Shown here piece after piece: positions 20,087 through 38,057 of a stretch of DNA of 64,000 nt. Numbering within the stretch: position 1 is the first letter of the stretch; every line of letters starts with the position of its first letter. Origin of the DNA: an uncultured Spirochaetales bacterium (GTDB lineage: Bacteria; Spirochaetota; Spirochaetia; Sphaerochaetales; Sphaerochaetaceae); contig CASEGX010000117.1 of assembly GCA_949287505.1 (NCBI GenBank), positions 1 to 64,000 of the forward strand. Direction: 5' to 3'. The notes under the pieces are model-generated. The model searched no databases. It saw only the letters and a list, made by a program, of their open reading frames with translations, and was not told where the DNA came from. Both the position numbers and the translations under genes were made by a program.

Positions 20087-20109
20087 GCTTAGAGCTCCAT
20101 GCTCTTATG

Positions 20110-20135
20110 GCCCTGGATCCGTCCAGGGCTTTTTT
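20110..20135 (+). terminator. Terminator of pckG
   Basis: GCCCTGG (20110-20116) pairs with CCAGGGC (20123-20129) around a 6-base loop and is followed by six T. This is a textbook intrinsic terminator, 24 bases after the pckG stop. Confidence 0.9.
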
Positions 20136-20233
20136 CATCGCATGGTATGTTCGCTTCATCGTTTTATCCAGACGAAGGGAGAGGTATAAGGAATAATATA
20201 GGCTGAGAGAATCTTTTTATAAGGAGATTACGG

Positions 20234-20983
20234 ATGATCAGCATCGCTATTTGTGATGATCAGAGCATGTATCTTGAAAAGATTGAGAAAGCCATATCAG
20301 AATACTTCATCAACTTCCCGGAGTATCAGGTGAGGGTATCAGGATTCTGTAATTCTTCTGTTTTCCTGGATGAGCTTGAAAAGACTGGAGGCTGGGATAT
20401 CGTCATCCTTGATATCTGCATGCCCGGTATCAGTGGAACAGAGATAGCCCGGGAGATACGCAGGAGACATGATCGTACAGAGATAATCTTCATCTCCGTC
20501 TCTTCCGATTATGCACTTGCAGCTTTTGCCCTGAAGGCCGTGCACTATGTCCTCAAGCCGTTCTCATCTGCAGAATTCCACGAAGCGCTTTCACGGGCTC
20601 TTCTGCCTTTTTCAGATAGAAAACCACGGCGTATCCTCCTGCATCTTGCCAGTGGTTCCATTCAAAGCATTGATGCATCTTCCATTCTCTATATTGAAAG
20701 CATCGCTTACAGGAGGGTCGTCCATACGTCAAAAGGCGTGTTTGAGGAGACGAGGAGGACGCTTTCTTCCTTTCTGGAAGAGCTTGGTGATCTTTTCCCC
20801 GGTCAGTTCATACAGCCTTATCGCGGTTATATTGTGAATCTGGAGGCAATCCGGACCATATCTCCTGATCACATTACTTTGCAAAGTGGTGATTCGGTCC
20901 CCATAAAACGTGGCGATTTCCGCAAACTCCGTGAGTCATATTTCAAGTGGTCATTCAGAGATGAAGGAGCGGATGTTTTATGA
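20234..20983 (+). CDS. LytTR-type response regulator
   Basis: A 249-residue two-component regulator. Residues 1-120 form the receiver domain with acidic pair Asp8-Asp9, phospho-acceptor Asp60 in VILDICMPG and Lys in YVLKPFSSAEF. Residues about 135-240 form a LytTR DNA-binding domain (SIQSIDASSILYIESIAYRR, FIQPYRGYIVNLEAIRTI, SVPIKRGDFRKLRESYFKW). No histidine kinase lies next to it. LytTR regulators often control extracellular structures, and the gene precedes the chaperone-usher operon by 443 bp on the same strand, so it is a candidate activator of that operon. The ribosome site is AAGGAG. Confidence 0.9.
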   Translation: MISIAICDDQSMYLEKIEKAISEYFINFPEYQVRVSGFCNSSVFLDELEKTGGWDIVILDICMPGISGTEIAREIRRRHDRTEIIFISVSSDYALAAFALKAVHYVLKPFSSAEFHEALSRALLPFSDRKPRRILLHLASGSIQSIDASSILYIESIAYRRVVHTSKGVFEETRRTLSSFLEELGDLFPGQFIQPYRGYIVNLEAIRTISPDHITLQSGDSVPIKRGDFRKLRESYFKWSFRDEGADVL

Positions 20984-21353
20984 GAAAGAGGGACGATTCA
21001 TCGTGTGAAAAGTCTCTTTTATCGTAAATCACATCGAAGTGTTATTTTCTGTGATAACCAAATATACAGTTAGGTATGGAAGATTATGCAGTATTATATC
21101 GTGCTTGGTTCCAGCTTTTCCCAACTTTGGATAAATCAGGAGGTAAATGTACATTTGTGAAATAATAAAAGTGTATAAAAATACCACTTAATTCTGTTAA
21201 GGAAAAGGACTTGAAAAATAAGATGCGCTGATATAGCATAGCTCTTACAAGAAACAGAATTTACATGGTAGAAGGTGTAAGCTTGACAGCTTTATCTTCC
21301 CCTCCCTGTTTATTCTCTCTGCCTAGAAAATGGAAATTGTGCATTTTCCAGAC
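20984..21353. other. Long AT-rich leader region before the chaperone-usher operon
   Basis: No gene of normal size is found. The stretch includes an AGGAGG followed 3 bases later by a 15-codon frame (21147), probably too close to be translated; a good -35 box TTGACA at 21283-21288 without a -10 at the right distance; a C/T-rich tract (21297-21308); and a hairpin TGGAAAttgtgcattTTCCA (21331-21350). A region this long before a surface operon suggests complex control. Confidence 0.4.
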
Positions 21354-21368
21354 GGGGGGGGGTAAACT
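21337..21368 (+). promoter_or_regulatory. Candidate length-variable promoter with a nine-G spacer tract
   Basis: A run of nine G (21354-21362) lies between TTGTGC (21337-21342) and TAAACT (21363-21368). The spacer is 20 bp, so loss of about three G would bring it to the optimal 17. GCYTAGAAAAT is repeated on both sides (21321-21331 and 21376-21386). Poly-G tracts of this kind tune promoter strength in Treponema pallidum tpr genes. The boxes themselves are weak matches. Confidence 0.4.
21354..21362 (+). repeat. Homopolymeric G9 tract
   Basis: Nine consecutive G residues, 64 bases before the chaperone start codon. I noticed no other G run this long in the window. Such tracts slip during replication and are a common basis of phase variation. 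Confidence 0.9.
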
Positions 21369-21426
21369 GATTCTTGCTTAGAAAATACTGAAAATAATTC
21401 AGAAGTGTCCGAAGGGAGGGATATTC

Positions 21427-22158
21427 ATGCTTAGGAAAGCCGCACTGCTTCTTGCGGTTCTGCTGATACCATTCAGCCTGATGGCTTATCAGCTATCACC
21501 ACTTAATGTAACATATGATCCGACAGGCGCTGGGAGTGCCAAGGTTTATACAATAGTCAATGATTCTGATTCCCCGGTAGCAATCGAGGTTAGAGCTGAG
21601 CAGAGGATTGTTGATATAGACGGTAATGAAGCGAATCAGGATGGTTCTGCGTATTTCTCAATCCAGCCCAATAGGATGATCATCAGGCCTGACTCCACAC
21701 AGCTTGTCCGTGTACAGTACCGTGGACCTCAGACTGTAACGAGGGAGCTTTCATTCCGGATTATCTCAGAGCAGATTCCAATGCCTCGAGGCGCACAGGA
21801 AGAAGAGAGCGGACAGATGATTTCCTTCCTCTTCGTCTATTCTACAAGTGCATATGTAAAGCCTTCACGCATCGTTGAGAGCATAGCCTCTGCTGTAAGT
21901 GTCACAGAAGATGGAAAGCTTGAGATCGTGCTTGAGAATACAGGAAGCGTTCATCAGATGCTGAACAGCCTCGACATCGAGATCTCCGATGATAAAGGAA
22001 ACACTTATACTCTGACAGAAGAAGAACTGCTGCCTCTTTCAGGACAGAACCTTCTTACGAATTCAAAGCTGCGCACAGTGATTGAGATGCCGGAGATTCT
22101 TACTGGCTCAGACTCTTTCACAGCTTCTGTTTCCTACGATTACGAATATTCAGCCTGA
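21427..22158 (+). CDS. PapD-like periplasmic pilus chaperone
   Basis: A 243-residue exported protein with a 20-residue signal peptide (MLRKAALLLAVLLIPFSLMA). The N-terminal Ig-like domain has the chaperone pattern: SPLNVTYDPTGAGSAKVYTI, PVAIEVRAEQR, MIIRPDSTQLVRVQYRG and ELSFRIISEQIP, the alternating hydrophobic strand that donates to subunits. The second domain ends SVSYDYEYS. PapD-type chaperones fold and cap pilus subunits in the periplasm and hand them to the usher. It is first in a tightly packed operon with an AAGGGAGGG ribosome site, 20 bp before the usher. The family is strongly supported; the subclass (classical or CS1-like) is not clear. Confidence 0.85.
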   Translation: MLRKAALLLAVLLIPFSLMAYQLSPLNVTYDPTGAGSAKVYTIVNDSDSPVAIEVRAEQRIVDIDGNEANQDGSAYFSIQPNRMIIRPDSTQLVRVQYRGPQTVTRELSFRIISEQIPMPRGAQEEESGQMISFLFVYSTSAYVKPSRIVESIASAVSVTEDGKLEIVLENTGSVHQMLNSLDIEISDDKGNTYTLTEEELLPLSGQNLLTNSKLRTVIEMPEILTGSDSFTASVSYDYEYSA

Positions 22159-22178
22159 AGCAGAAAGCAGGGGGATTT

Positions 22179-25100
22179 ATGGTATCAGATAACGGACTTC
22201 GCCGGATCCGGTATGTTCTTATCATCATTTTATCTGTGCTGATAGCTGGGATAACAGCATATCTTGCCCTGTTTCCTGACATGGGCAAAGGCTTTGCTGT
22301 GTTCTTGGCTCTCGCTATTCTTCTGATGTCATCTGTCCTTATGAATCTCTGCATTGCAGGAAGTACGGATGACACGAGGAGAATAGCCCTTCTTGTTTTT
22401 TCAATAGGCGTTCTTCTTCTCTTCCTCGGTGGCATTGTTTATATCCTGTTTTTAAATCCTGATGATGAAAATCCACCTGTTGCGGAAACATATATTGAAC
22501 CGGAAAGCATGGAAGAAATCATAATTCCGGAAAACACTGAACCTGTTGCTATTCTGGAAGAACCTGATGAAATCATTGAAACACCTTCCATTCCTTCTGC
22601 ACCATCTTTATCCTTTGAAATCACGGATATAATTCCCGAAGAGACAATAACCACAATACCAGAACAGGAAACTCCAGAAAAAACAGAAGAGCTGGATCAT
22701 GAGCCTGCAATTGAGGCAGGAAATATAGTTCCTGAAATAAATGATTCAGAGTATATAAATACAACAGATGATATTTCAGATTCTGAAGTAAGTGATACTC
22801 CGTTTGATCCATCGGCAGAACCTTACATTTCTCCATCACAGCAAAGGGCTGATGATTTCTGGTCAAGTTTCTTCATAGCTGGAGAGGATGAGCTCGTTCT
22901 TGAAGACGGTGTTTATTTCATGACGCTTGTCGTGAATAATAGTGAAGTAGGGACAATCAATACAGTTATAGAAAATGGGGCTGCTTCCATAAGTACATTT
23001 GAATTGAAGGAGTATCTCAGAGGTTCTATAACCGATGAGGCTGAAAGCAGGATTTTCTATGGTGATGAAGATTATATATCTATAGAAAGCCTCAACGAGG
23101 CAGGCGTTCAGGCTTCCTTTGACAGTAATGCATATATTATCACTCTGGATTTCTCAAACGAGGACATGCCAGTACAGATTCTAAGCGTGAGAGGAGTCTC
23201 CAGAGGAGCATTGAAGTCCCTTCCTATATCAGGGGCAGAGATTATAAGTCCTGCAGCATTTACCTGGGCTTCCAGATATACGCTTTCCGGAAATTTCGAC
23301 ATCGTTCCAGCAAAGGATTTTGTAAATTCACTGAATTTTACATTCTCTGTAGATAACAGGCTGCGCCTCTGGGATCTTTTCCTGGATTTCGATTATGCCC
23401 TCAGATATAGAAATGGAAAACTGCAATTCGACTGGGGCAGTTATGAATTCCATTATGATTTCGAAGACTCTATGATTCGTCTTTCATGGGGCAATGTCGC
23501 TTCAGACCTTTTGTCTCCTTCGGGAACGGATATTGGAATCCGTTTTGATAAAGCAATTGAATACGGTCCTCCAGATGCTGCACGGAAGAGTCATATAGAG
23601 CAGATCATTTCCATCGAAACTGAATCGGATGTCCAGATATTCAATGAAGACAATGAGATCTTTAGAAGAACACTTCAGCCAGGTAACTATAGATTACAGG
23701 ATTTTGTACTCTATACAGGAGTAAACAGGATTCGCATTGTTGTCACACCTCTTGATGGCTCTCCTGCCACTGAAACTGAGATTGACCTGATTTACTCCAG
23801 CTCACTTCTTGCTCCCGGAGAGGTTTATTATGGCGGTTCTCTCGTAACAAGCAGGAATATAGTGAATTCCCAGAATGATATTATTCCCGGTGCTGTCAGA
23901 ATCCCTCTTTCTGATGGAAGAAGTCTTGAATACGATGCAAGAAATATATCTCTTGGTGGCTATCTCCGTGCAGGACTGACGGAAAGTCTTACTATGGATG
24001 TCTCTGCAGCTTTCATGAACAGCGTCACATCATCAAGCTATTTCAATCCCACAGTCCGAACAGCTTTTGAATTTACCCATGCGAACATATTGGGAACGAC
24101 AAGATACAATCTCAATGTGACCGGTAACAATGATGGCAATGGCCATTTCGTCCTTCCAGAGATCTATGCAAGAATCGGACATCAGGCATTTACCGGCATG
24201 AGATGGCTCAGCTCTCTGAATCTCGGCTTCACATATAATGCAGATTTCAGCAGATCAGATAATCGTCATTCTTTAATGCTTTCCTCCAGCTTCTCTGGTT
24301 CTGTTGGAATTGTTGGATGGGGTTTGAGTCTTTCTGGTACATTGCGTCCGGAAATACTGAGAAACTCCACTTATAGTGCGTCTCTCTCATTGTCATTATC
24401 TGCAACACGTAATGTCTATTTCAGTGCAGGTCTTTCTGTAAGCGGTTCAGGAACAGCTGATCCATCTGTCATCGGACGGGCAAGTGCTACTATCAGATTC
24501 AGTCCAGCGAGGGCTTCTATCAGCGTCTCCAACAACAGGCTTTCTGCAGATGTCAATGTGAATAGCGGAAAGCATTCATTCTCTGCAGGTGTCGATACTT
24601 CTCCCAAATACATTGCTCAATTTGATTCTTATTCATTCGATGCGGCTTATTCATACTCTGGAAGTCTCTTTAATATCTCGGCTGGTTTGTATGCTGATGA
24701 TGCTATCAGAAGTGTTTCAGGCAATTTCTCTATATCTACCGCATCCGTTTTTGCAGATGGCCTTATGGGTTTCAGTTCTTATATTCCTTCCAATTACATT
24801 CTCCTTAAGCAGGAAGGAGCGATAAAGGGTAATGATATATCTGTAGGATCTGTAGGTAGCTCAATGTCTTCACCTCTTAACCAGAGATTTGGAATAGGGT
24901 TGTATACAGGACTTTCTCTGAATAGAACATCATCTCTTTCTGTATATAGTGTGAATCCTGAGTCTTTTGGATCTGCAACTGCCTTCAATATTGCAATACC
25001 TGCAAGCCGGAGAGGTGGGTATGTCCTTCGTGTAAAAGCAGAAAACAAGTATTCTGCTTCCGGCGTTGTCATATTGCCCGATGGCACTTTATGGCTTAAT

Positions 25101-25451
25101 GGTTCTTCCCCTGTGTACAGAGTTGAGGAAGAAAATGGGCGCGTAGAGCTTGAGTCCTCGGATTATTATGTTTTCACAGATTCTGATGGCCGTTTCATAA
25201 TCTCTGATCTGATTCCTGGACGTTATGCATTTGATGTCAGCTACGAAGATAAGTGGCTGCTATATGTGTTCAATATATACGATGACGAAGAGTATTCCGT
25301 GGACATCCAGCTCCTTGAAAATCCAGAGCCGGAATCCGGAATTATCATTCCTGATATCTATTCCGCGCTTTATTCATTCGATAACGGTGAATATGTGACC
25401 GGAGATGAGTTCTGGGCAATGCTTTATCCAGATATGTGGGAGGCTGTATGA
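22179..25451 (+). CDS. Usher-like outer-membrane protein with N-terminal membrane helices
   Basis: A 1090-residue protein. It does not start with a signal peptide but with three predicted membrane helices (about 12-32, 38-61, 69-92), followed by about 130 residues rich in Glu, Asp, Pro, Ile and Thr. From about 225 it resembles pilus ushers: an N-domain (GVYFMTLVVNNSEVGTINTV), then a long beta-barrel of alternating Ser/Gly-rich strands with LQPGNYRLQDFVLYTGVNRI and PGEVYYGGSLVTSRN, and a carboxypeptidase-regulatory-like C-terminal domain (FTDSDGRFIISDLIPGRYAF). Ushers form the outer-membrane pore that assembles pili. The inner-membrane-like N-terminus is odd and appears genuine, since the frame is continuous. 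Its stop overlaps the next start (ATGA). Confidence 0.75.
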   Translation: MVSDNGLRRIRYVLIIILSVLIAGITAYLALFPDMGKGFAVFLALAILLMSSVLMNLCIAGSTDDTRRIALLVFSIGVLLLFLGGIVYILFLNPDDENPPVAETYIEPESMEEIIIPENTEPVAILEEPDEIIETPSIPSAPSLSFEITDIIPEETITTIPEQETPEKTEELDHEPAIEAGNIVPEINDSEYINTTDDISDSEVSDTPFDPSAEPYISPSQQRADDFWSSFFIAGEDELVLEDGVYFMTLVVNNSEVGTINTVIENGAASISTFELKEYLRGSITDEAESRIFYGDEDYISIESLNEAGVQASFDSNAYIITLDFSNEDMPVQILSVRGVSRGALKSLPISGAEIISPAAFTWASRYTLSGNFDIVPAKDFVNSLNFTFSVDNRLRLWDLFLDFDYALRYRNGKLQFDWGSYEFHYDFEDSMIRLSWGNVASDLLSPSGTDIGIRFDKAIEYGPPDAARKSHIEQIISIETESDVQIFNEDNEIFRRTLQPGNYRLQDFVLYTGVNRIRIVVTPLDGSPATETEIDLIYSSSLLAPGEVYYGGSLVTSRNIVNSQNDIIPGAVRIPLSDGRSLEYDARNISLGGYLRAGLTESLTMDVSAAFMNSVTSSSYFNPTVRTAFEFTHANILGTTRYNLNVTGNNDGNGHFVLPEIYARIGHQAFTGMRWLSSLNLGFTYNADFSRSDNRHSLMLSSSFSGSVGIVGWGLSLSGTLRPEILRNSTYSASLSLSLSATRNVYFSAGLSVSGSGTADPSVIGRASATIRFSPARASISVSNNRLSADVNVNSGKHSFSAGVDTSPKYIAQFDSYSFDAAYSYSGSLFNISAGLYADDAIRSVSGNFSISTASVFADGLMGFSSYIPSNYILLKQEGAIKGNDISVGSVGSSMSSPLNQRFGIGLYTGLSLNRTSSLSVYSVNPESFGSATAFNIAIPASRRGGYVLRVKAENKYSASGVVILPDGTLWLNGSSPVYRVEEENGRVELESSDYYVFTDSDGRFIISDLIPGRYAFDVSYEDKWLLYVFNIYDDEEYSVDIQLLENPEPESGIIIPDIYSALYSFDNGEYVTGDEFWAMLYPDMWEAV

Positions 25452-26146
25452 GACGTAATGTTATAATCTGCCTTATCTTATTGCTTGTTTTACTGATAGT
25501 TCCTGCATTCTCTGCAGATCTGGGTATCAAGGCATATAAACTCGGAGGAGCAGATGAGAGTGGAAAGTATTTTGAACTTGCAATCACAGATGCTCTTACC
25601 GGAAGTCTTAATATCGTTAAGGATGTTGCTGACGGGGAAGGTGCATCAACAACCGGGCAAATAAATATCACAGATTATATTGATGATTTTCTTGGAACAA
25701 TACCATCAGCTCAGGCATCTGGCAGCTATGGAAGCTTTCTGTTCTCATACCGTCTTGCGGGAAACTATGAGGGAAGCTATACGATTTCAATGACGTTGTC
25801 ACCGTTTAAAGGAACAGCCTCATCCAATACAGGAATAGTGAATGCATATTATGAGCTTAAGAATGAGAATATCATTTTCAATGAAGCACACACTACGGAA
25901 AGCAGAGATGGATTCACTATAACCCAGAGTTCAGGGAATCCTTCGTATAAGGCCACAAACGATAGCAGCGTGGAATTAAGCACAAGCATAAATATAAGCA
26001 ATGGTAACAGTACAGAGTATGAGCTGATTGATGATATCTGGATCGCAAGAGGTGCGATATTCGCGATTATCGACTCATCAGACTATGACTCTGTTGGCAA
26101 TGATCTCTACAACGCCAGTGTCGTAGTGGAAATACTGTCAGACTGA
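25448..26146 (+). CDS. Exported protein of the chaperone-usher operon, subunit 1
   Basis: A 232-residue protein whose ATG overlaps the usher stop. The signal peptide (MRRNVIICLILLLVLLIVPA, cut near FSA-D) is followed by a beta-rich sequence with repeated Gly/Ser/Thr strands (GSYGSFLFSYRLAGNYEGSY) and a hydrophobic alternating last strand (NDLYNASVVVEILSD), as expected for a subunit that exchanges strands with a chaperone. No family is recognised. Its place directly after the usher suggests a minor, basal or adaptor subunit. It is less like the later paralogues, since the F/Y-W motif is missing. Confidence 0.65.
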   Translation: MRRNVIICLILLLVLLIVPAFSADLGIKAYKLGGADESGKYFELAITDALTGSLNIVKDVADGEGASTTGQINITDYIDDFLGTIPSAQASGSYGSFLFSYRLAGNYEGSYTISMTLSPFKGTASSNTGIVNAYYELKNENIIFNEAHTTESRDGFTITQSSGNPSYKATNDSSVELSTSINISNGNSTEYELIDDIWIARGAIFAIIDSSDYDSVGNDLYNASVVVEILSD

Positions 26147-26156
26147 AGGAGGGAAA

Positions 26157-26804
26157 ATGAAAAGAAAAATAATTGCATTCATCATATTCTTTATCGTTCT
26201 TTCTTCTTTGGGTGCTGAGAGAAAGGAAATGAGCAAAAGCTTCCAGATTCAGGGAGCCTATGGAACCGTAACAGAGCTTGCAATAACTCCTATTCCTGCT
26301 CAGTCACAGAATTATCGTATTGGTATGCCTTTCAATGTTGAGGATGTGCAGGTTCAGTCCACACAGGAAGCAGGCAGAAAGATTGCTGAGTGGTCTCTTA
26401 TCTCAAATACGAGGTTCCTTCTCAAGATAAAAGCCACGAAACTGACGTTTAATGGAGAATCAGCAACAGCAGAGCCTCTGGATTATGTAATCACATTTGC
26501 TTACAGGCTGACAGATACTGTTGGAACACAGCATTTCCAGTACAACACGGAGTCAGGGGCCGCAAACCTTGTTGGTTCAAGTGAAGCCGGGGCAACTGGT
26601 GAGAAGGATGGTGAGTACACCGTCATCGATATCCTCGGTCCTGAATTCACTGAGGAGTACTTCAGTAACTCATATATCGGAATACTCAATGAGAGTATTT
26701 ATTTCAAATTCACACAGTCAGCTTCTGCAAAAGTCCAGGATGATGATCTTGTCCCTCCCGGCGAATATTCAGCTGTAGTGACACTGTTAATAGAGGGGGA
26801 ATGA
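26157..26804 (+). CDS. Exported protein of the chaperone-usher operon, subunit 2
   Basis: A 215-residue protein with a short signal peptide (MKRKIIAFIIFFIVLSSLGA). The mature part is beta-rich; LISNTRFLLKIKATKLTFNG occupies the place of the FW-strand seen in the later paralogues, and the C-terminus LVPPGEYSAVVTLLIEGE has the proline/glycine-tyrosine-strand pattern of pilus subunits. The ribosome site is GGAGGG, and the next gene starts 1 bp after its stop. A structural or tip role is inferred only from context. Confidence 0.65.
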   Translation: MKRKIIAFIIFFIVLSSLGAERKEMSKSFQIQGAYGTVTELAITPIPAQSQNYRIGMPFNVEDVQVQSTQEAGRKIAEWSLISNTRFLLKIKATKLTFNGESATAEPLDYVITFAYRLTDTVGTQHFQYNTESGAANLVGSSEAGATGEKDGEYTVIDILGPEFTEEYFSNSYIGILNESIYFKFTQSASAKVQDDDLVPPGEYSAVVTLLIEGE

Positions 26805-26805
26805 T

Positions 26806-28197
26806 ATGAAGAAAGTATTGGCATTATTTATCGTCATCATTGCACTATCATCCTCATTGTTTGCTTATGAATATAAAGTGGGAGATGTTCAGAGCCGCTT
26901 TAACAGCGAGTCAAACATGGCTGTAATGCCTTACGATGGTGCATTCGGCGTTAATCTCAGAGACACTGGTTCTTATCCTGTACGTAATGGAAATGTGGAG
27001 TATCGAGATGGTTCCATCATTAAAAATGATGCTTCCCATTATTTTGATGACCAGATGGTTGCTAACGGAATCATTGAAGGAGTATTTAAACGAATCGAAT
27101 GGTTTGAAAATTACCGTACAGACCGTTATAGATATGATTTAGAGAAAGTTTCTTCTATGACTCTACGTGTCGACTGTTCTTCTGACTTCATGTTTGTATC
27201 GCAGTCTGATGATTCATATAAGCGCCCATTTTATTTATATGTACTTCCGCGAGCTGTCAGCGGAGAGAACAAATATGCAGGAGATCCTACTGGAACGATT
27301 GCACCGATTCTTGTAACTGACAGTTCTCCGGTAGAGATACCTGCACCATCAAATTTTGATGACTATACTTCCATCTGGTTCGATCTGCTTCTTGCACTCC
27401 CTGGAGAGGTCACAGATGAAGGTGTAACGGTAGAGAATACCTTTTACCCGCTCTCGGACGCCGATGATTATACAGCAGAAGTCACAATAACAATTGAGTG
27501 GACTGGTATTTACGCAATAAAGTACTCTTCTTGGTCGCTTATTGGATGGTGGGATGATGATGAGCAAATTGGTACTGAAACAGTTACAGTAGAACGTACC
27601 ATGACAATACCATTCTCAGGATATTGTTCATTTGATGAACAAGAATCTACAGGAAGTCTTTATATAAGTACGACATCTGAATCTCAGGAAATCAACCTTA
27701 ATCCTGATGCTGCATCGACTGTGAAGGTTGCGGATATATCCTATCTTGTTAATTTCGGACACGGGCTTGGAGGCTCTCAGCCTGCATACGATGATTCAAA
27801 GGCCTGGATGTTCCTCTCTGCAAGCCCGGATCCTGGAAGTTCTTTGCAGGATGGATTCAGACTTGTTAATCAGAACGCGACAGGAAGTCTTACTGATTAC
27901 AACAGCGTTCCTTTCCTTGTGACTGTTGAAGGAAATGGTCAGTTCATAGAGTTTGATGGAAGAGCAAAAGCTTCTGATTTCACACCTGATGGTGGTATAG
28001 ATACCGAATATATTGAGACTGCATGTATATGGGAACAACATCGATTTAATAGCTCAAATAATAGCAACAGTCAGTATTACCACTCCCATAATTTTGAAGG
28101 CGAGGTTTTTGTTGAGGTAACTCCAAAATCTGATCTTATAGCACCTGGTCGATATGTCGGCGACATATATGTTCATGTAATTACGAATGGAGATTGA
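26806..28197 (+). CDS. Large exported protein of the chaperone-usher operon (possible tip adhesin)
   Basis: At 463 residues it is about twice the size of its neighbours. It has a signal peptide (MKKVLALFIVIIALSSSLFA), an aromatic- and Asp/Asn-rich N-terminal domain of about 280 residues, and a C-terminal half ending DLIAPGRYVGDIYVHVITNG, the same last-strand pattern as the small subunits. A two-domain protein with one pilin-like domain and one extra domain is the layout of tip adhesins in chaperone-usher systems. I infer that role, but no binding motif is recognised. Its stop overlaps the next start (TGATG). Confidence 0.65.
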   Translation: MKKVLALFIVIIALSSSLFAYEYKVGDVQSRFNSESNMAVMPYDGAFGVNLRDTGSYPVRNGNVEYRDGSIIKNDASHYFDDQMVANGIIEGVFKRIEWFENYRTDRYRYDLEKVSSMTLRVDCSSDFMFVSQSDDSYKRPFYLYVLPRAVSGENKYAGDPTGTIAPILVTDSSPVEIPAPSNFDDYTSIWFDLLLALPGEVTDEGVTVENTFYPLSDADDYTAEVTITIEWTGIYAIKYSSWSLIGWWDDDEQIGTETVTVERTMTIPFSGYCSFDEQESTGSLYISTTSESQEINLNPDAASTVKVADISYLVNFGHGLGGSQPAYDDSKAWMFLSASPDPGSSLQDGFRLVNQNATGSLTDYNSVPFLVTVEGNGQFIEFDGRAKASDFTPDGGIDTEYIETACIWEQHRFNSSNNSNSQYYHSHNFEGEVFVEVTPKSDLIAPGRYVGDIYVHVITNGD

Positions 28198-28775
28198 TGA
28201 ATATGACAGTAAAAAAGATATTGGCTTTGATTTTTATCTCTTTGCTGGTCTTCTCTCTGTTCGCAGAAGACCATAGGCACCTTTCTCTGAGCGCTACTGT
28301 TCCAGAGGATTTTGGCATTGCCTTTCCACCCGGGGCAATAAAGCTTGATAGATTTGTTTTTGAGTTTGGATTTGAAGCTGATGAAACCAGACTGCTTGAT
28401 GAATGGGTGCTGCCAATCGGGGAAATAGAAGCTGCAACTGGTTCTCGGAATCTTAGTCTTCTTTATTATGGAAACTCTTCTTCCGTATATGATGTGACTC
28501 TCAATTTCTCTATCAGTGATATGACACTTAAAGATTCTGATAACGGGATATCAATTCCTTTGGGTATGGAATTCAGCACGAATCCATATGTCGATGATGA
28601 TATCGAAGTCTATGCAGAGCAAGACGTCGATTCTGTCAGGGTTATTATACCACCGGCGGGGGAGCGCATAGGTGTTCCTGTCGTGGATATGAGGTTTTAT
28701 TGGGATATTTCCGATGGCATTATGCCCGGGGATTATGAGGCAGAGCTCCGTATAGAGCTTCTGGAAAATAATTAA
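28197..28775 (+). CDS. Exported protein of the chaperone-usher operon, subunit 4
   Basis: A 192-residue protein. The ATG at 28197 overlaps the previous stop and follows GGAG; an ATG at 28203 is also possible. Signal peptide (MTVKKILALIFISLLVFSLF, cut near AED). The mature part is beta-rich with SLLYYGNSSSVYDVTLNFSI and ends GIMPGDYEAELRIELLENN, again the G-x-Y plus alternating strand of a subunit. No family is recognised. Confidence 0.65.
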   Translation: MNMTVKKILALIFISLLVFSLFAEDHRHLSLSATVPEDFGIAFPPGAIKLDRFVFEFGFEADETRLLDEWVLPIGEIEAATGSRNLSLLYYGNSSSVYDVTLNFSISDMTLKDSDNGISIPLGMEFSTNPYVDDDIEVYAEQDVDSVRVIIPPAGERIGVPVVDMRFYWDISDGIMPGDYEAELRIELLENN

Positions 28776-28790
28776 GGAGGAATCAAGAAA

Positions 28791-29429
28791 ATGATTCGTA
28801 AAGGAATAGCTGTTGCCATTGTTCTCTTGCTTGTACTGAATGCTATGTTCGCAGATGATTTAGCTACAGGAACGTCTGAGATTACACTCAGTCTGAAGAA
28901 TGGAACCGGTGATGAGGAGAATCCGGTTTTGACGCCTTCGTATAAGGTTGGATTTACAAATGAGTCCAGTGTTACTGCAGAAACAGATATGAATGGTAAA
29001 ACAGTCGATAAAGTCGTACTGTCAGATGCCACTGCAGATGCACAGCTTGTTGCTACTGGTTCTGTGAATATGTTTTATCAGATTATCAGCAGCGATCCAG
29101 TCCATGTAAAGATTACTGGAGAAGCTCTTGCTTCTACAAAGCTGGCAGGTGTGGAAGGTAATGAAGACACTATTGACTGGGATGCAGAATTCACGCCGAA
29201 AACAAATGAATCCGCAGGATCTAAGACTTCTTTTGGCTATAGCGAAGGAACAAAAGATTATTCAACAGGTGCTGTAATTTTCACACATAATCCTTCTGCA
29301 ACAAATGGAACCGTTGGATCAAGCGGTGTTATCCCTGTGACTTTTACAACTCAGGATGCTTCAAAAAACACTATTGATGATTACACCGCAACAATAACAC
29401 TGACTGTTACGGAAGGATTATCAGACTGA
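28791..29429 (+). CDS. Exported pilin-like protein, paralogue A
   Basis: A 212-residue protein with signal peptide MIRKGIAVAIVLLLVLNAMF. It shows the motif set shared by this family: SVNMFYQIISSDPVHVKITG (an F/Y-aromatic strand), then TIDWDAEF, and a C-terminal strand TIDDYTATITLTVTEG. AAGGAGG ribosome site, 15 bp after the previous gene. It is probably a repeated or alternative pilus subunit assembled by the upstream chaperone and usher. Confidence 0.68.
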   Translation: MIRKGIAVAIVLLLVLNAMFADDLATGTSEITLSLKNGTGDEENPVLTPSYKVGFTNESSVTAETDMNGKTVDKVVLSDATADAQLVATGSVNMFYQIISSDPVHVKITGEALASTKLAGVEGNEDTIDWDAEFTPKTNESAGSKTSFGYSEGTKDYSTGAVIFTHNPSATNGTVGSSGVIPVTFTTQDASKNTIDDYTATITLTVTEGLSD

Positions 29430-29444
29430 TAGGTAACGGAAGCA

Positions 29445-29990
29445 ATGATAAAACGTATAGGGCTGGTGATAATCTTACTGTTTTTCTCTTTCTGCTGTTT
29501 TGCAGGAGAGGTGCTTGATAATGCGGATATGACGCTGATTTTTGATATGAAAAACAGTTCTCATGATATCCGCATATTCGGCTTCTCCTCGGAGCCTGTT
29601 GAAGTATTTGATCAGGCTTCAGAGGAGCAGCTTGAACTGGAAACATCAGGCTCTGATAGTGATTTTCATGCCAGCTCGACGTTTTATGCATATTGGTATG
29701 TTTCGTCTGTTCAGCCGTTTGAGATCATTCTTTCTGGGACATCGCTTCAGAATGAGAAATCGATATGGGATTGGGTATGCTATTGGGATTCTCTCCAGGA
29801 GGGGCAGCAGACTTCTGTTGTCCTGAGTTCTATTGGCAGGGAAGCGGGAGAGCTTCTATATGAGCATGATCCAATGAATGGAATAACTTCTGAAGGAATG
29901 GTTGAGATTTCCCTTGAAACTCTGGCATCTGGCAACCTTATTCCAGGTACATACCAAGGGACCATTACGATGGGAATTGCGGGGAAATGA
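29445..29990 (+). CDS. Exported pilin-like protein, paralogue B
   Basis: A 181-residue protein with signal peptide MIKRIGLVIILLFFSFCCFA. Family motifs: TFYAYWYVSSVQPFEIILSG, then SIWDWVCYW, and the last strand LIPGTYQGTITMGIAGK. It is one of the shortest members and sits 1 bp before the next gene. The start at 29445 has a weak AACGGAAGC ribosome site, so coupling to the preceding gene is likely. Confidence 0.65.
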   Translation: MIKRIGLVIILLFFSFCCFAGEVLDNADMTLIFDMKNSSHDIRIFGFSSEPVEVFDQASEEQLELETSGSDSDFHASSTFYAYWYVSSVQPFEIILSGTSLQNEKSIWDWVCYWDSLQEGQQTSVVLSSIGREAGELLYEHDPMNGITSEGMVEISLETLASGNLIPGTYQGTITMGIAGK

Positions 29991-29991
29991 T

Positions 29992-30549
29992 ATGGTGAAA
30001 AGAATACTGTCAGCTTTGCTTATATTAATTATTTTCATTCACGCATTGACCGCAAGTGAAGGAACACCAACAGGTTTTTTCAAGCAGAATCAGATTTCAG
30101 GTGATGGTTCTGAAACTGCAGAGAGTGAAGTTGTTCTTTCTTTCAGCAACCTTCTGAGTGTCAAAGTAGGCTTCAGAGATCCTGAAGATGAGGACAAGAT
30201 TGTATATAGTCTTGATTTTGATCCAGACAACAAAACAGGTGTAGCTACGGCTTCTGTTGAGCTTTTCTGGTCTCTTGTTACAGAAAACATTCCTGTAAAG
30301 CTCACTATAGGGCCTCTTGAAAGGTTATCCAACCGGAATGTGGCAAATACACTGGATTGGGAAGTTTCTGGTTTTGGCAGTACATCTGTTGATAGTAATG
30401 AAGGGAATACAAGCAGTGTCGATGTTTCAGCTCAGGCCGGCAACCTTGAGGATTCTGCAAAGCTGGAAATAAAAACACTGGGAGATTATAGGTTTCTGCC
30501 AGCTCGTTCGTATACGGCAGATTTAATAGTTAAAGTAAATATTTCCTGA
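29992..30549 (+). CDS. Exported pilin-like protein, paralogue C
   Basis: A 185-residue protein. The ATG at 29992 is chosen because it begins a clear signal peptide (MVKRILSALLILIIFIHALT) and follows a GGGGAAATGA stop/ribosome region; a longer upstream frame overlaps the previous gene and has no signal. Family motifs: SVELFWSLVTENIPVKLTIG, NTLDWEVSGFG, and the last strand SYTADLIVKVNIS. The spacing of the FW and DW motifs is nearly the same as in paralogue D. Confidence 0.65.
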   Translation: MVKRILSALLILIIFIHALTASEGTPTGFFKQNQISGDGSETAESEVVLSFSNLLSVKVGFRDPEDEDKIVYSLDFDPDNKTGVATASVELFWSLVTENIPVKLTIGPLERLSNRNVANTLDWEVSGFGSTSVDSNEGNTSSVDVSAQAGNLEDSAKLEIKTLGDYRFLPARSYTADLIVKVNIS

Positions 30550-30563
30550 GGAGGGATAATACA

Positions 30564-31208
30564 ATGAAGAAAATAATTCTTTTCGGATTGATGATCATGT
30601 TGGTTGCAGCTGTTTATGCTAAAACTACTGATGGCATTTATAACAGCGCAGACCAGGGGGACTCAGGTTTCCAGGATGGCGATGGAGCAATGATTCCGGT
30701 ATCACTTACTCTTGATGGAGCCTCTGCTCCAGAATCAGTCAAAGTCGGTTTTGTCAGTGGGGATGTCACTGCTATTGATACAGATACTTCTTCCATGAAA
30801 GTTTCAGCTGCATCTCTTACGCCTGTTACAGGTTCTGCAGTAGGAGACCATGATGTCGGTACAGCTTATCTTGATAGAGCAAAGACCCCTGTCAATGTCT
30901 TCTGGCAGATTCAGTCGCCAAACACACTGTATGTTAGGCTCAGCACTTCCGCACTTTCAAATGGTGCGCCTAGTGGTGAGGTCACAATCGACTGGGAGGT
31001 TTCAGGAACCGGTGATGACGAATTTACAATCGGGGGAACAGGTGAGGACGTATCTTATGAGGCGGCATTAGTTTATACTCATAAAGGATTAGAAACATCA
31101 TATACATCTTTCGGAGATGCTGATCTTGAAATGAAGACAGCAAGCTATGTTGGTAAGATCGGAGATACATATTCAGCTGATCTGACTGTTACAGTATCGA
31201 CAAAATAA
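30564..31208 (+). CDS. Exported pilin-like protein, paralogue D
   Basis: A 214-residue protein with signal peptide MKKIILFGLMIMLVAAVYA. Family motifs: PVNVFWQIQSPNTLYVRLST, TIDWEVSGTG, and the last strand TYSADLTVTVSTK. The composition is rich in Gly, Ser, Thr and Asp and poor in Lys, usual for surface subunits. GAGGAGGG ribosome site. It is closest to paralogue C by motif and could be the result of local duplication. Confidence 0.68.
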   Translation: MKKIILFGLMIMLVAAVYAKTTDGIYNSADQGDSGFQDGDGAMIPVSLTLDGASAPESVKVGFVSGDVTAIDTDTSSMKVSAASLTPVTGSAVGDHDVGTAYLDRAKTPVNVFWQIQSPNTLYVRLSTSALSNGAPSGEVTIDWEVSGTGDDEFTIGGTGEDVSYEAALVYTHKGLETSYTSFGDADLEMKTASYVGKIGDTYSADLTVTVSTK

Positions 31209-31209
31209 G

Positions 31210-31857
31210 ATGACAAAGAGACTTTCTCTTGTTGCAATATTGATTATCAGTCTGGTTGCAACGCTTGGTGCGGTGCAGCTTGCAGATGATGAGCTGACAA
31301 AGGAAACTCCCGCAAAGCTTGGTGTGAAGCTTGGGTTTAATCTGACTAATTTCCAGAACTATGAATTTGGTTTCACATCCTCCGGAGTAGTTTCCAGTGC
31401 AGCACCATTGCCATCTGTTGATCTGACACCCGTTGCTGAAGTCAGCCAAAATGGTATGACCACTCTTTCTGTTTCACCTGTGAGTCTGTATGCTTATTGG
31501 AATGTTACAGGCAGAGATAACATCTCTCTGAATCTTCAGCTTAGAAGCGGGCTTGTCAATCCGACAGCAGATGGAAATGAGAAGAGGGTTATTCCTCTGA
31601 CTGTACGCTGGTACAGCAATGGACAGGATCATGTGCTTACAGCAACTGGTGAAAGTCCTGTTGGCGGGACTGGAAATGACTCATTGATAATGAAAAGAAA
31701 TCTTTCATCTGAACCCCTTCATGAAGAAGGTGTTGTTCAGCTTACTGTAAGTGCAAGTGATACTGCGGGAGAGACAGGATCATTTTCATTGAATGAGATT
31801 GCATTATCTGGTGCTTACAGAACAACGATGACAATAATTGTCAGAACAACAAATTAG
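31210..31857 (+). CDS. Exported pilin-like protein, paralogue E
   Basis: A 215-residue protein that starts 1 bp after the previous stop and has signal peptide MTKRLSLVAILIISLVATLG. Family motifs: PVSLYAYWNVTGRDNISLNL, PLTVRWYSNGQ (the DW position is RW here), and the last strand LSGAYRTTMTIIVRTTN. No ribosome site of its own is seen, so translation is probably coupled to the gene before it. Confidence 0.65.
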   Translation: MTKRLSLVAILIISLVATLGAVQLADDELTKETPAKLGVKLGFNLTNFQNYEFGFTSSGVVSSAAPLPSVDLTPVAEVSQNGMTTLSVSPVSLYAYWNVTGRDNISLNLQLRSGLVNPTADGNEKRVIPLTVRWYSNGQDHVLTATGESPVGGTGNDSLIMKRNLSSEPLHEEGVVQLTVSASDTAGETGSFSLNEIALSGAYRTTMTIIVRTTN

Positions 31858-31870
31858 TAAAGGAGGAGCG

Positions 31871-32392
31871 ATGAGAAAAATACTTATGATTTCAATTGTA
31901 CTTCTGATTATTGCTCCTCTTTCAGCAATTGATCAGTATGCTATTGCAACAATTGATTTCACCTCTGAACTTGCTGCTAATTTCGGATTTACCAAACAAG
32001 TCGTAAATTCCTCAATAAGACCGACTGATGATTTTACTGCAGATACAGTGATTTATTTTGATGACTACGATGATTATGAATCCATACGCACTGAAGCCTT
32101 TAATATCTACTGGCAGTTGTTCACACCACAAGGAGTGATACTTGAAGTAGCTGGTACACCACTTACTTGTGAAGGGCAGAGCGGAGCAATCACGTGGAGT
32201 AATTCAAGAGACATTGATTTAAGGAGTGATGGTAATTTTGTCACTGTTTATGAGGATGAGAACAACTCCGGAAACGGGATACGCTATGACTATAAATCAA
32301 TAAGACTTGTAATAGATAACGATTCGCTTGATGGAATCAACTGGAATGAAGAATATTCTGGAACCCTTACATTGAAGCTGAGTGTAAAGTAG
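31871..32392 (+). CDS. Exported pilin-like protein, paralogue F
   Basis: A 173-residue protein. The ATG at 31871 follows AAAGGAGGAGCG and begins a signal peptide (MRKILMISIVLLIIAPLSAI); a longer frame from 31838 overlaps the previous gene and is rejected. Family motifs: AFNIYWQLFTPQGVILEVAG, SGAITWSNS, and the last strand EYSGTLTLKLSVK. It is the smallest of the set. Confidence 0.68.
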   Translation: MRKILMISIVLLIIAPLSAIDQYAIATIDFTSELAANFGFTKQVVNSSIRPTDDFTADTVIYFDDYDDYESIRTEAFNIYWQLFTPQGVILEVAGTPLTCEGQSGAITWSNSRDIDLRSDGNFVTVYEDENNSGNGIRYDYKSIRLVIDNDSLDGINWNEEYSGTLTLKLSVK

Positions 32393-32403
32393 TAGGCAGG
32401 ATA

Positions 32404-33012
32404 ATGAGAAAGATATTATTAACAATAATCCTTGTATTTATCTCTTTAATCGCAGCTTTTGGTGCTGTTTCCTCCAGTGCACTTACCGGGGCAGAGTTCG
32501 ATATGTATTTTGTGAAAAATGGAATATCTAAACCGACATTTTTCGATGTGAAGACAGGGCTTGAAGCTACTTCTTTCGGCTTCCCTCCATATACTGGTAC
32601 TGAGGAGGTATTGACAGCCGAGTTAGGTCTGGAATTGGTGATATACGCGACGAATTACTCTCTTTATCTTACGTTTATTGATAACACCGGCGATTATAAC
32701 TCTGGTTATATGCTTTCAGGTGCAGATGACGTATCTATGGGCAACTACAATTATTCTGTTACTTTCACAAGTAATGATGTACAAGAGACCCATCAGATAA
32801 ATGTGACGGATGCCACAGCTCCGCGCTCAATCAGTGAGAGACGTATTGATATCTTTGATATGAACTCCGCTAATGTGGAGGATTCAGATTCAGAGATTGT
32901 CAGCGCGGTTACCGGTTCAGGTACTCTGACCTGTACTTTGACAACTCCTTCCAATGGTTTTAAACAGGGACAGTACCGTGGGCATATAGTATGTGTCTTA
33001 ACAACTGAGTAG
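32404..33012 (+). CDS. Exported protein at the end of the chaperone-usher operon
   Basis: A 202-residue protein with signal peptide MRKILLTIILVFISLIAAFG. It is more divergent: ELVIYATNYSLYLTFIDNTG lies where the FW strand is in the others, and the last strand is GQYRGHIVCVLTTE. It closes the operon. A small stem GAATGAAccatTTCATTC (33049-33066) follows but lacks a T tract. It may be a terminal or alternative subunit. Confidence 0.62.
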   Translation: MRKILLTIILVFISLIAAFGAVSSSALTGAEFDMYFVKNGISKPTFFDVKTGLEATSFGFPPYTGTEEVLTAELGLELVIYATNYSLYLTFIDNTGDYNSGYMLSGADDVSMGNYNYSVTFTSNDVQETHQINVTDATAPRSISERRIDIFDMNSANVEDSDSEIVSAVTGSGTLTCTLTTPSNGFKQGQYRGHIVCVLTTE

Positions 33013-33258
33013 TCTGTATACATATTCTTTTCAGTAAGTTTTCCATATGAATGAACCATTTCATTCGTAGCTGATCATCGGTAATGAATATGTCAGTAAA
33101 GATGGATTTTGAGTTGTCAGAGTGAAAGCTTCTATGCAGGATGGCTTTGAAAAAACAAGCTTATGCTCAAGAGATTCGGGAGTTTCCGTTCCTGGTGAAG
33201 AAAGAAATATACAGGGCACAACGTGAAATTGCTATTGCATGATGCAAGGAGAACGGAT

Positions 33259-33287
33259 TTGAGTGGAAATGAGCATTGTGCTAGATT
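33259..33287 (+). promoter_or_regulatory. Promoter of the RNase D-like gene, predicting a leaderless mRNA
   Basis: TTGAGT (33259-33264) and TAGATT (33282-33287) are 17 bp apart. Transcription should begin about 7 bases after the -10 box, which is the ATG at 33294. No ribosome site precedes that ATG, in agreement with a leaderless message. Confidence 0.45.
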
Positions 33288-33293
33288 CTCAGT

Positions 33294-34157
33294 ATGGATT
33301 ACACATATCTTGATACCGACAAGAAGATAGAAGAGGCTGTTTCCCATTTTGAGACGCTGGACAGGATAGCTGTTGATTTCGAATGCGAGTTCAACCTGCA
33401 TATCTATGGAGAGCACCTCTGTCTTATCCAGATATTCGATGGTGTCTCTTTCTATCTTATAGATCCGAGGGCATCAGGCGTTACCAGAAATGGTCTTTCC
33501 CTGTTTTTCTCATCTTCTGTAAAGAAACTCTGGTTTGACTGTCAGTCCGATGCCTCTCTTGTTTTCAAGGTATATGGCCTTTGTATTGAATCTGTCTTCG
33601 ATGTGAGGGTGCTTGCCGAGATCCTTGGTTTCCATGGCAATCTGCATGCTCTGGAGAGTGAGTATCTTCATATAGACAGCAGTGTGAACAAAAAGAAGAA
33701 CCAGCAGGCCAACTGGCTTAAACGACCTATTCCTGAAAGTCAGATAGAGTATGCGCTTGAGGATGTTGCGCATCTTATGGAGCTTGAGGATGTACTTGTT
33801 CCTATTGTTCATGAGCGCAAGCTTGATAAAAATGCTGAAAGTGCGATGAGAAAGGCAACATCTCCTAAGAAGCCACTCCCTGGCTGGACAAGAATCGGAG
33901 GATGGAAGAGGCTGACAAAGGAAGAGAAGATTTATGCGAAGAATATATTCATTGCCCGTGATAAAATCGCAAAACGCTTCAATGTCCCCGCAGCCCGTGT
34001 GATGAATAAGCATCTGATTACCGAACTTGCAAAAGAAAGGCCTTCCAGTGAAGGAAGGCTTAGAGAAAAACTGCAGAATGAGAGTGAGAGATTCCTTTCA
34101 TTTCTCATTCCCGCTGTATGGAATGCAATGGAAATAAGCCGTAAGGAATCAGACTGA
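33294..34157 (+). CDS. rnd: RNase D-like 3'-5' exoribonuclease
   Basis: A 287-residue DEDDy exonuclease with an HRDC domain. ExoI is AVDFECEFNLH with Asp28 and Glu30, ExoII is KLWFDCQSDASLV, and ExoIII is IEYALEDVAHLMEL with the Tyr-x3-Asp pair. The HRDC region follows GGWKRLTKEEKIYAKNIFIA, where RNase D enzymes bind RNA. RNase D trims tRNA and other small RNA 3' ends. It is shorter than E. coli RNase D (375) and has one HRDC domain rather than two. It ends 9 bp inside the 3' end of the convergent peptidase gene. All catalytic acids are present. Confidence 0.85.
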   Translation: MDYTYLDTDKKIEEAVSHFETLDRIAVDFECEFNLHIYGEHLCLIQIFDGVSFYLIDPRASGVTRNGLSLFFSSSVKKLWFDCQSDASLVFKVYGLCIESVFDVRVLAEILGFHGNLHALESEYLHIDSSVNKKKNQQANWLKRPIPESQIEYALEDVAHLMELEDVLVPIVHERKLDKNAESAMRKATSPKKPLPGWTRIGGWKRLTKEEKIYAKNIFIARDKIAKRFNVPAARVMNKHLITELAKERPSSEGRLREKLQNESERFLSFLIPAVWNAMEISRKESD

Positions 34158-35675: not shown

Positions 35676-38057
35676 TTATAAGCTTTCATCTGGAAGCGAA
35701 ACCCCATCAACGATGATATCTGTAGTAACTGTATGACCATTAGAGTATCCGACTTTCCAGCTAGCTGTATGAGGTTCACCATCAATAGAAGAACCCTCTG
35801 TAATATTAACAATCTGAGTTGATGACAGCGTGCCCTGATCGAAGACCTGTTCGTATGTTCCATAAAGAACAACATCAGATCCCTCTGCATTATATTTAAC
35901 ACCAGTCATGGTGATTACATAATTACCGCTTGTTTGGCTGCCTTCTGTAATTTCCATACCATCGAGATCCATATACTGGATAATACTGATAGTTGTACTG
36001 AAAATGCTTCTTACAAAATTGAGATTTCCTGTTTCTCCACCTGGATTATCATCTCCTCCCGGCGTTGTTCCAGGTTCTGCATAGATTACCTCACAGCTTT
36101 CTGGAAGCTGCCTGAAAATTGAAGACTCCCAACCATCAGGAATTTTGCCTTCCTCGAAAGCTACCTTGAAGGTTTTCAGATTATGGCATGCATTGAATGC
36201 ATTCGGGCCAACGTCAACAACAGAAGCTGGAATCTCTATATTCTCAAGACCCGTTGCCCAGAAAGCGCCTGTGTTTATACGTTCAAGTCCATCCGGAAGT
36301 TTGATTTTCTTAAGGGATGTACAGCCATGAAAGGCTTCCCTTCCGATGCTCCTAAGAGTAGAAGGCAGGGAAACATCAGCAAGAGATGTACATTTTGAGA
36401 AAGTTGAGCTTTCTAATGATGCTACACCTTCTGGAATTTCTATAGTCTCAAGAGAAGTGCAGCCTTCGAATGCAGATACACCGATTTCATTGATACTGGA
36501 AGGAATCTCAATGCTCTTAATTGTTGTGAGATCTTTGAATGCATCATTACCGATTTTCACCACAGGTAAGCCGCGGTATTCAGCAAGGATATTGACTTCT
36601 ACTGGTGTAGAACCTGGTGCATATCCATCAACCAGATAACATTCAACTTCGTTATTGTTCTCATCATAATAAAACCTTGGAACATAATACAGCTTATTAA
36701 GTTCTGCTGGCTTACTTTCTACATTATCCGGAAGACGATTGTTCCATCCATGCCACTTGTATGATACTTCGTGGACATAGGGAACATATACGGTCCTAAG
36801 ATTAGCGCAGTTCTCAAAGATTCCGTTTCCTATGATCTCCACAGTTTCAGGAAGAGTAACTTCCTCAATAAGGGTACCACTGAATGCTCCGTCTCCAATA
36901 GTTTTAACACTTGCTGGAAATGAAGATATTTTGATTGGAGTGTTTTTGAAAGCATTTTCCCCGATTGTCTGAAGTTTTTCCGGGAGTTCTGTGAGTGAAA
37001 CGTTGATCCCCTCAAAAGCACTTTCTCCGATTTCCGTGAGCGAAGAGGGAAGGGAGGTGAGAGCGATGCTCTTGTTTTCTGGATATCCCATGAAAAAAGC
37101 ATACTGACCTATACTCTTCAAAGAATCAGGAAGTTCCGTAAGAGCAAGATTTGAACACTCATAAAAGGAATATTCTCCGATTGATTCAAGTGTAGATGGA
37201 AGATTGATAGTCGTCAGTGATTTGCAGCCATGGAATGCCTCATTCTCAATGACCTTTACAGTCTTCGGAACTGTAATAGATGTAATAGATTCGTTTTGAT
37301 AGAAAGCATGCGAACCAATGGCAATAACGGGAAGTCCTTTATACTCAGCAGGAATACTTAATTCAGAATTACCATCTGTAACACTTGCTCCGATGCAGAT
37401 ATATCCATTTTCTTCTGATGATTTCAAGAAGGCGAGGCCTTCATTGCCGTAGTTGTAATGGATTGTCGTACTTTCTGGGACATTATCCACCCACATCAAA
37501 CTGTTCCAGGCATATGAACCTTCAGGAAGCGGAACATACAGATCTGTAAGATTTGAGCAGCCAGCAAGCATACTATACTGAACCATCGTTACGCTATCAG
37601 GAATTGTAAGGCTCTTAAGCCCGCTGTTTCTGAATGCAGAAAGACCAATGTACTGCAACGTTGATGGCAGTTCTAGTTCTTCAAGGTTCGGCATATTCGA
37701 AAACGAATTGTCATTGATCGCAAGAATACCATCTTCGATGACAATCTTTCTGACATCCTGCAGCATTGTTGCATCTTGGATGGTTGCAATCTTATACCCT
37801 TTGATTTCAGAAGGAATTGTGTATGTGTCTATAGGTTCATCAGGCCTTTTCATGGCCATTACACCGTAATATCCCTCGTAATCAGGATCAGGATAGATTG
37901 CAAACATGCCATCTTCACTTGTAATGAATCCAGTTTCTCCTCCTGGATTATCCGGATCATCTCCAGTATCCGACGTAACCTGCGGCGAACATGAGACAGA
38001 TACAAAAGCAATAATCAATACAAAAAGAATGGCTGATATTACTGAAAGCTTCTTCAT
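35676..38057 (-). CDS. BspA-like leucine-rich-repeat surface lipoprotein
   Basis: A 793-residue lipoprotein. The signal peptide ends in a lipobox (FVSVSCSP, lipidated Cys near 23), then an Asp/Gly/Pro linker. Most of the chain is LRR_5 (BspA/TpLRR) repeats of about 23 residues, for example ITVPKTVKVIENEAFHGCKS, LPSTLESIGEYSFYECSN and IEIPSSINEIGVSAFEGCTS, in two blocks (about 85-425 and 490-660). The last 110 residues form a separate domain after a second GGDDNPGGETG linker, a sequence that also follows the lipobox. BspA-like proteins bind host fibronectin or other bacteria in Treponema, Tannerella and Trichomonas. Ribosome site GGGGGAGGT. It would sit on the outer membrane. Confidence 0.9.
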   Translation of the reverse strand: MKKLSVISAILFVLIIAFVSVSCSPQVTSDTGDDPDNPGGETGFITSEDGMFAIYPDPDYEGYYGVMAMKRPDEPIDTYTIPSEIKGYKIATIQDATMLQDVRKIVIEDGILAINDNSFSNMPNLEELELPSTLQYIGLSAFRNSGLKSLTIPDSVTMVQYSMLAGCSNLTDLYVPLPEGSYAWNSLMWVDNVPESTTIHYNYGNEGLAFLKSSEENGYICIGASVTDGNSELSIPAEYKGLPVIAIGSHAFYQNESITSITVPKTVKVIENEAFHGCKSLTTINLPSTLESIGEYSFYECSNLALTELPDSLKSIGQYAFFMGYPENKSIALTSLPSSLTEIGESAFEGINVSLTELPEKLQTIGENAFKNTPIKISSFPASVKTIGDGAFSGTLIEEVTLPETVEIIGNGIFENCANLRTVYVPYVHEVSYKWHGWNNRLPDNVESKPAELNKLYYVPRFYYDENNNEVECYLVDGYAPGSTPVEVNILAEYRGLPVVKIGNDAFKDLTTIKSIEIPSSINEIGVSAFEGCTSLETIEIPEGVASLESSTFSKCTSLADVSLPSTLRSIGREAFHGCTSLKKIKLPDGLERINTGAFWATGLENIEIPASVVDVGPNAFNACHNLKTFKVAFEEGKIPDGWESSIFRQLPESCEVIYAEPGTTPGGDDNPGGETGNLNFVRSIFSTTISIIQYMDLDGMEITEGSQTSGNYVITMTGVKYNAEGSDVVLYGTYEQVFDQGTLSSTQIVNITEGSSIDGEPHTASWKVGYSNGHTVTTDIIVDGVSLPDESL

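Follow-up and report, generated by a model that had tools for sequence, protein, structure and literature searches.

Introduction

Most of what is known about chaperone-usher pili comes from Proteobacteria; the present study concerns a divergent system of this kind in a spirochaete. The window analysed here, a stretch of 64,000 nucleotides of contig CASEGX010000117.1, belongs to the gut spirochaete genus Candidatus Ornithospirochaeta (Spirochaetaceae incertae sedis in the NCBI taxonomy) and carries an operon in which the genes of a chaperone and an usher are followed by eleven genes for exported proteins (s1 to s11). TCDB family 1.B.11 already includes ushers from Spirochaetae (PMC4827864), so the presence of an usher alone in spirochaetes is not new. 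Folds, family relations, a conserved poly-G tract, and block-wise divergence of the subunits were established by computation, and the locus as a whole is probably best explained as a chaperone-usher pilus operon with an anchored usher, poly-G switching, and block exchange.

The closest described systems are the archaic (sigma) and alternate (alpha) pili, whose most characteristic feature is an arginine in domain 1 of the chaperone (PMC4654587). The locus resembles the archaic Csu/SCPU pili in the proline/arginine pair of its chaperone and in the fold of s5, whose matches include CsuA/B and CsuE, and a related spirochaete operon, other than that of the window, encodes an SCPU-domain protein above the cut-off. 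It differs in that no window subunit matches the SCPU model (PF05229) of the archaic class, in its apparently anchored usher and in its poly-G tract; the Csu system of Acinetobacter has four subunits (PMC4654587) against the eleven found here. The likeness to alternate pili (CFA/I and the E. coli common pilus, ECP) lies in the best fold matches of s5, namely CfaE, CfaB, CS17, and EcpA, and in the chaperone profile, which matches EcpB (E = 0.01). To our knowledge, no comparable usher anchor has been described in alternate pili. Classical Fim/Pap systems share the usher architecture (FimD/PapC); unlike theirs, the window chaperone has an arginine reported solely from non-classical systems (PMC4654587).

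Within Spirochaetia, other families encode homologues of the chaperone (E = 1e-42 to 1e-57) and of the usher in compact operons. These differ from the window operon in having few subunits and ushers of about 800 aa, which begin with ordinary signal peptides wherever the start is clear. Treponema pallidum has about 8–11 Gs in the promoters of surface-protein genes (tpr genes and tp0126), as at the pilus operon, and these poly-G promoters vary in vivo and are measurably affected by tract length (PMC7864442). The window tract differs in its setting, since it stands before a pilus operon and the gut spirochaete that carries it is of a different lineage; its effect on transcription is presumed. The literature searched contained no paper naming both Sphaerochaeta and usher, which does not imply absence elsewhere, and the combination of many subunits, anchored usher, poly-G tract, and block exchange was not found there for spirochaete chaperone-usher pili.

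Identity of the chaperone and usher

The chaperone matched the PapD_N model (PF00345) above the Pfam cut-off, as did 27 of the 28 aligned members of its family. Pro81 and Arg111 are invariant across the 28 related chaperones and align with a proline and an arginine of EcpB that lie 29 residues apart, the same spacing as that of Pro60/Arg89; from this spacing, the pair may correspond to Pro60/Arg89. With a conserved domain-1 arginine and an invariant proline, the chaperone shows the marks of the non-classical class.

Single-protein searches of Pfam, NCBIfam, and PDB sequences named neither the usher nor any subunit, and the usher profile gave only chance-level matches against PDB sequences. PF00577 was matched by 9 of 38 members of the usher alignment (best E = 2e-6), the window usher itself not being among these single-protein matches. 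The AlphaFold 2 (AF2) model of usher residues 215–1090 (predicted local distance difference test, pLDDT, 83.6) matches full-length FimD (Foldseek E = 8e-29, 901 alignment columns) and PapC (3e-27), in agreement with an usher built of an N-terminal domain, a plugged barrel, and C-terminal domains. Since the usher model matches FimD and PapC, and the matches of the s5 model are led by CFA/I, Csu, and ECP pilins, this is a genuine, divergent chaperone-usher system, nearest to the non-classical (archaic/alternate) class, and the pathway named in the original prediction is borne out. Usher relatives occur in 105 of 139 genomes of the order; the genome scan for further loci was made with the chaperone alignment.

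Subunit families and their structure

The original prediction, made from the DNA letters, described eleven exported proteins in one operon. Its coordinates hold: the eleven open reading frames (ORFs) downstream of the chaperone and usher all lie on the + strand, separated by −4 to +15 nt, and a signal-peptide-like start is present in every one (11/11). The aromatic strand it assigned to six consecutive genes (s5–s10) was present in 6/6 against 0.4 expected. The last-strand pattern, which it extended to the other five, lies within 28 residues of the C-terminus in 11/11 window subunits (0.5 expected from shuffles) and recurs in 185 of 197 related subunits (11 expected). It was also right that the pilin family is unrecognised, as no Pfam or NCBIfam model matches the subunits.

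Genes s5–s10 form one sequence family (FA), which by single linkage via relatives (blastp E < 1e-6) comprises 101 members in 20 genomes, and the other five subunits fall into five separate families (F1, F2, F3, F4, and F11). After removal of the signal peptides, whose presence inflated the hhalign runs (chaperone control, 81%), the profiles of F11 (97%), F2 (95%), F1 (84%), and F4 (61%) matched FA, with controls below 5%; the F1 match covers only the C-terminal 32 columns of F1. F3 is linked only through F11, which its C-terminal part matches at 72%. The five non-FA subunits are remote relatives of FA or at least have its last strand in common.

The AF2 model of s5 (pLDDT 87.9) contains beta strands and no helix, with residues 1–27 left unpaired. 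Its matches are led or crowded by CfaE, CfaB, CS17, CsuA/B, CooA, and EcpA, with CsuE also present, and families absent from the match list are not counted as excluded. The CfaE pilin domain was matched at Z = 8.5, and the pilin alignments mostly begin at residue 28. An incomplete immunoglobulin (Ig) fold with a free N-terminal strand is therefore seen in this one subunit, at moderate scores, and alternating hydrophobic residues occur in 71 of 101 N-terminal extensions (24 expected). Overall, the interpretation given in the original prediction is supported.

The gene order usher-F1-F2-F3-(F4)-FA repeated-F11 is kept in about 20 relatives (Ornithospirochaeta), whose complete operons hold 8–15 subunits. 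In the FA tree, just 3 of 34 cherries pair genes from one genome, and the order of orthologues is preserved from one species to the next. The serial duplication suggested earlier stands as regards a common origin of the six genes; the duplications are old, and recent tandem duplication is ruled out by the low number of within-genome cherries.

Probable block replacement of the subunit genes

Because synonymous divergence (dS) is saturated in more distant pairs, the evidence for block replacement comes from two close pairs of genomes. In G029 versus G063, dS is 0.18–0.38 for the chaperone, the usher, and four flanking genes downstream, against 1.0–2.5 for twelve matched subunits, with F11 saturated and protein identities of 33–58%. 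DNA identity of 90% breaks off some 100 nt inside s1, close to where its signal peptide ends, and 92% identity returns just past s11. In G047 versus G042, dS is 0.02 for the chaperone and 0.01 for the first 90 codons of the usher, the remaining usher is mostly 34–58% identical per window of comparison, the matched subunits F2–F4 are 32–39% identical, and F1 and the FA genes have no match; here the border of divergence falls inside the usher. Given low dS in the flanks, chaperone, and usher against at least 1.0 in matched subunits, the subunit set has probably been replaced as a block between close species, with recombination as the explanation of the sharp borders. Between the loci L206 and L208, divergence inside the block is mosaic, F4 and one FA gene being 77–78% identical and F1–F3 43–48%.

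A poly-G tract before the operon

A spacing of 64 nt separates the G9 tract from the chaperone gene downstream. Runs of 8–11 Gs upstream of the chaperone were found in 27 of 35 subunit-linked loci against 0 of 32 sister-type loci (one with just 135 nt upstream), and in the 27 positive loci the tract is the sole C/G run of at least 8. A T follows directly in 26 of the 27, and the next bases are often −10-like. In the window genome, GGGGGGGGGTA occurs 15 times and its reversed control twice, and nine other tracts stand between a TTGACA-like element and a TAG-like −10, 20–41 nt before mostly large lipoprotein-like genes (loci L217–L230); these nine likely mark a phase-variable set of surface proteins. 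A promoter scan returned fewer sites than in shuffles, and its result was not used. By its position and conservation, the tract likely confers phase variation on the pilus operon.

Two further observations concern these tracts. In L221, L223, and L224, short ORFs that closely resemble one another (e.g., METNETSLRGSR...), perhaps transposase fragments, come after the lipoprotein-like genes behind the poly-G tracts. Many operons of relatives share a stretch CAGCGTTTAG...ATGTCTTT shortly after the tract, perhaps a regulator site or leader, which the window lacks.

The variability that the original prediction thought plausible for the pilus is strongly supported by the block-wise subunit divergence and by the poly-G tract; the tract, the probable block replacement, and the apparent usher anchor are findings beyond it.

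A probable membrane anchor of the usher

All 40 aligned family ushers, including that of the window, begin with 1–7 predicted membrane helices (three in the window usher), followed by a linker of 107–432 aa rich in Pro, Asp, and Glu; the helix counts are approximate because some usher start sites are uncertain. Neither feature is present in the ushers of other spirochaete families. By way of these helices and the long linker, which is acidic and proline-rich, the outer-membrane pore is probably attached to the inner membrane; the linker would then span the periplasm.

Weighing of the alternatives

The divergence of the subunits could reflect fast evolution of old orthologues instead of block exchange, and the matched subunits of G029/G063 do remain mutual best matches in order. 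However, an increase of several fold is seen at synonymous sites too, and its borders, at the s1 signal peptide and the s11 end, are sharp. Selection that acts only on the protein does not produce such a pattern, so that this explanation is very unlikely. We also regard it as unlikely, to a lesser degree, that the poly-G tract is a conserved and stable promoter spacer without phase variation. The tract-length data compare genomes only with one another, as this view would allow; against it, lengths range from 8 to 11 between genomes, G047 and G042 have G11 and G8 tracts in surrounding DNA that is 95.7% identical, and in vivo variation is reported for the comparable promoters of T. pallidum (PMC7864442).

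The two other alternatives carry more weight. The usher helices may be cut off, or may form a separately working membrane domain, and so be no lasting anchor; cleavage would be invisible from sequence, the number of helices varies with some starts uncertain, and the G047/G042 pair exchanges the usher barrel yet retains the helices. Since helices and long linker share one reading frame in 40/40 family ushers, we consider this a real possibility, though the less probable one beside a lasting anchor. It is somewhat more doubtful that only a few of the eleven proteins form the pilus and that the others are separate surface proteins or alternative fibres sharing the chaperone and usher. In Sphaerochaeta-type genomes, the chaperone and usher have no adjoining subunits and stand beside what look like V-ATPase genes, and genes like FA and F1–F4 are located elsewhere, singly or in several clusters; because of this scattering, one usher may serve many separate products. 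In Ornithospirochaeta, by contrast, the families keep their order in one tight operon, and the last strand is retained by every window subunit. In the loci L053–L071, the lone chaperone-usher pair is mostly directly upstream of the V-ATPase-like genes, a linkage that spans many genera.

Several points weigh against the explanation of the locus as a variable, anchored pilus system. It is known here from sequence and from predicted models, which cover s5 and the usher. The pilins are matched by the s5 fold at moderate scores only (Z up to 8.5; template modelling score 0.3–0.55), and a few beta-sandwiches of unrelated proteins come close, with scores near 7. At the distance usual for such promoters, no clear TTGACA precedes the pilus tract. 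The genomes that show the block replacement belong to species of the genus other than that of the window, and the compared loci are largely metagenome assemblies, in which a chimaeric contig or assembly error is possible, chiefly in G047/G042.

Proposed mechanism

On balance we retain the pilus explanation. The subunits would be exported by Sec and then held by the PapD-like chaperone, and the usher would polymerise them by donor-strand exchange, in which the free N-terminal extension completes the open Ig fold of the next subunit. F3, being larger than one pilin domain, is probably the tip subunit, and the six FA and other single-copy subunits probably make up a mixed shaft; we infer this composition, like the role of the fibre, from the family relations. 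The helices and linker would join the two membranes as described above, slippage in the poly-G tract beside the presumed −10 element would switch or tune transcription, and recombination would swap the subunit block, at times with the usher barrel, so that related strains may show different fibres. More tentatively, at somewhat less than even odds, we extend this to a picture in which an inner-membrane-tethered usher, poly-G phase-variable expression, and cassette exchange of the whole set of 8–15 subunits give each lineage its own fibre type.

Features of the locus

The features are collected in Table 1; the start codons of s4, s7, and s10 were moved to the positions given there, as judged by ATGs. 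An Rfam search of positions 20000–34000 gave no match. Downstream, on the − strand (35676–38057), lies a BspA-type leucine-rich-repeat gene with a lipoprotein-like start.

Table 1. Coordinates of the operon and associated features in the window
Feature	Position	Strand	Basis or remark
LytTR response regulator, possible regulator (candidate role), upstream of operon	20234..20983	+	PF00072, PF04397; near operon in some relatives only
G9 tract, then TAAACT (possible −10 element, 21363–21368)	21354..21362	+	Sole C/G run of at least 7 in window; kept in 27/35 such operons
Whole operon, chaperone to s11	21427–33012	+
PapD-like periplasmic chaperone, 243 aa	21427..22158	+	PF00345 E 2e-7; non-classical Pro81/Arg111 invariant
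Outer-membrane usher, 1090 aa	22179..25451	+	AF2 model of residues 215–1090 matches FimD/PapC; PF00577 in relatives
Usher N-terminal part, three predicted membrane helices (aa 13–87)	22215..22439	+	Hydropathy, family conservation
Usher acidic, proline-rich linker (aa 88–227)	22440..22859	+	Composition 14% P, 28% D/E
s1, subunit family F1	25448..26146	+	Ortholog in operons of 22 relatives; last strand
s2, subunit family F2	26157..26804	+	Family relations, profile comparison
s3, long subunit family F3, candidate tip, 463 aa	26806..28197	+	C-terminal part matches F11 profile
s4, subunit family F4	28203..28775	+	Family relations, profile comparison
s5, FA family subunit, modelled	28791..29429	+	AF2 pLDDT 87.9; pilin matches
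s6, FA family subunit	29445..29990	+
s7, FA family subunit	29992..30549	+
s8, FA family subunit	30564..31208	+
s9, FA family subunit	31210..31857	+
s10, FA family subunit	31871..32392	+
s11, subunit family F11, final gene of block	32404..33012	+	Profile match to FA 97–99%

Significance

The locus presents a spirochaete lineage with a divergent, many-subunit form of chaperone-usher system, an apparently inner-membrane-anchored usher, and two layers of variation at one locus. Cultured Sphaerochaeta species carry the sister system and would make it experimentally accessible. If the proposed reading is true, it raises the question of why an usher would span both membranes, and the fibre diversity of uncultured gut spirochaetes would be readable from DNA.

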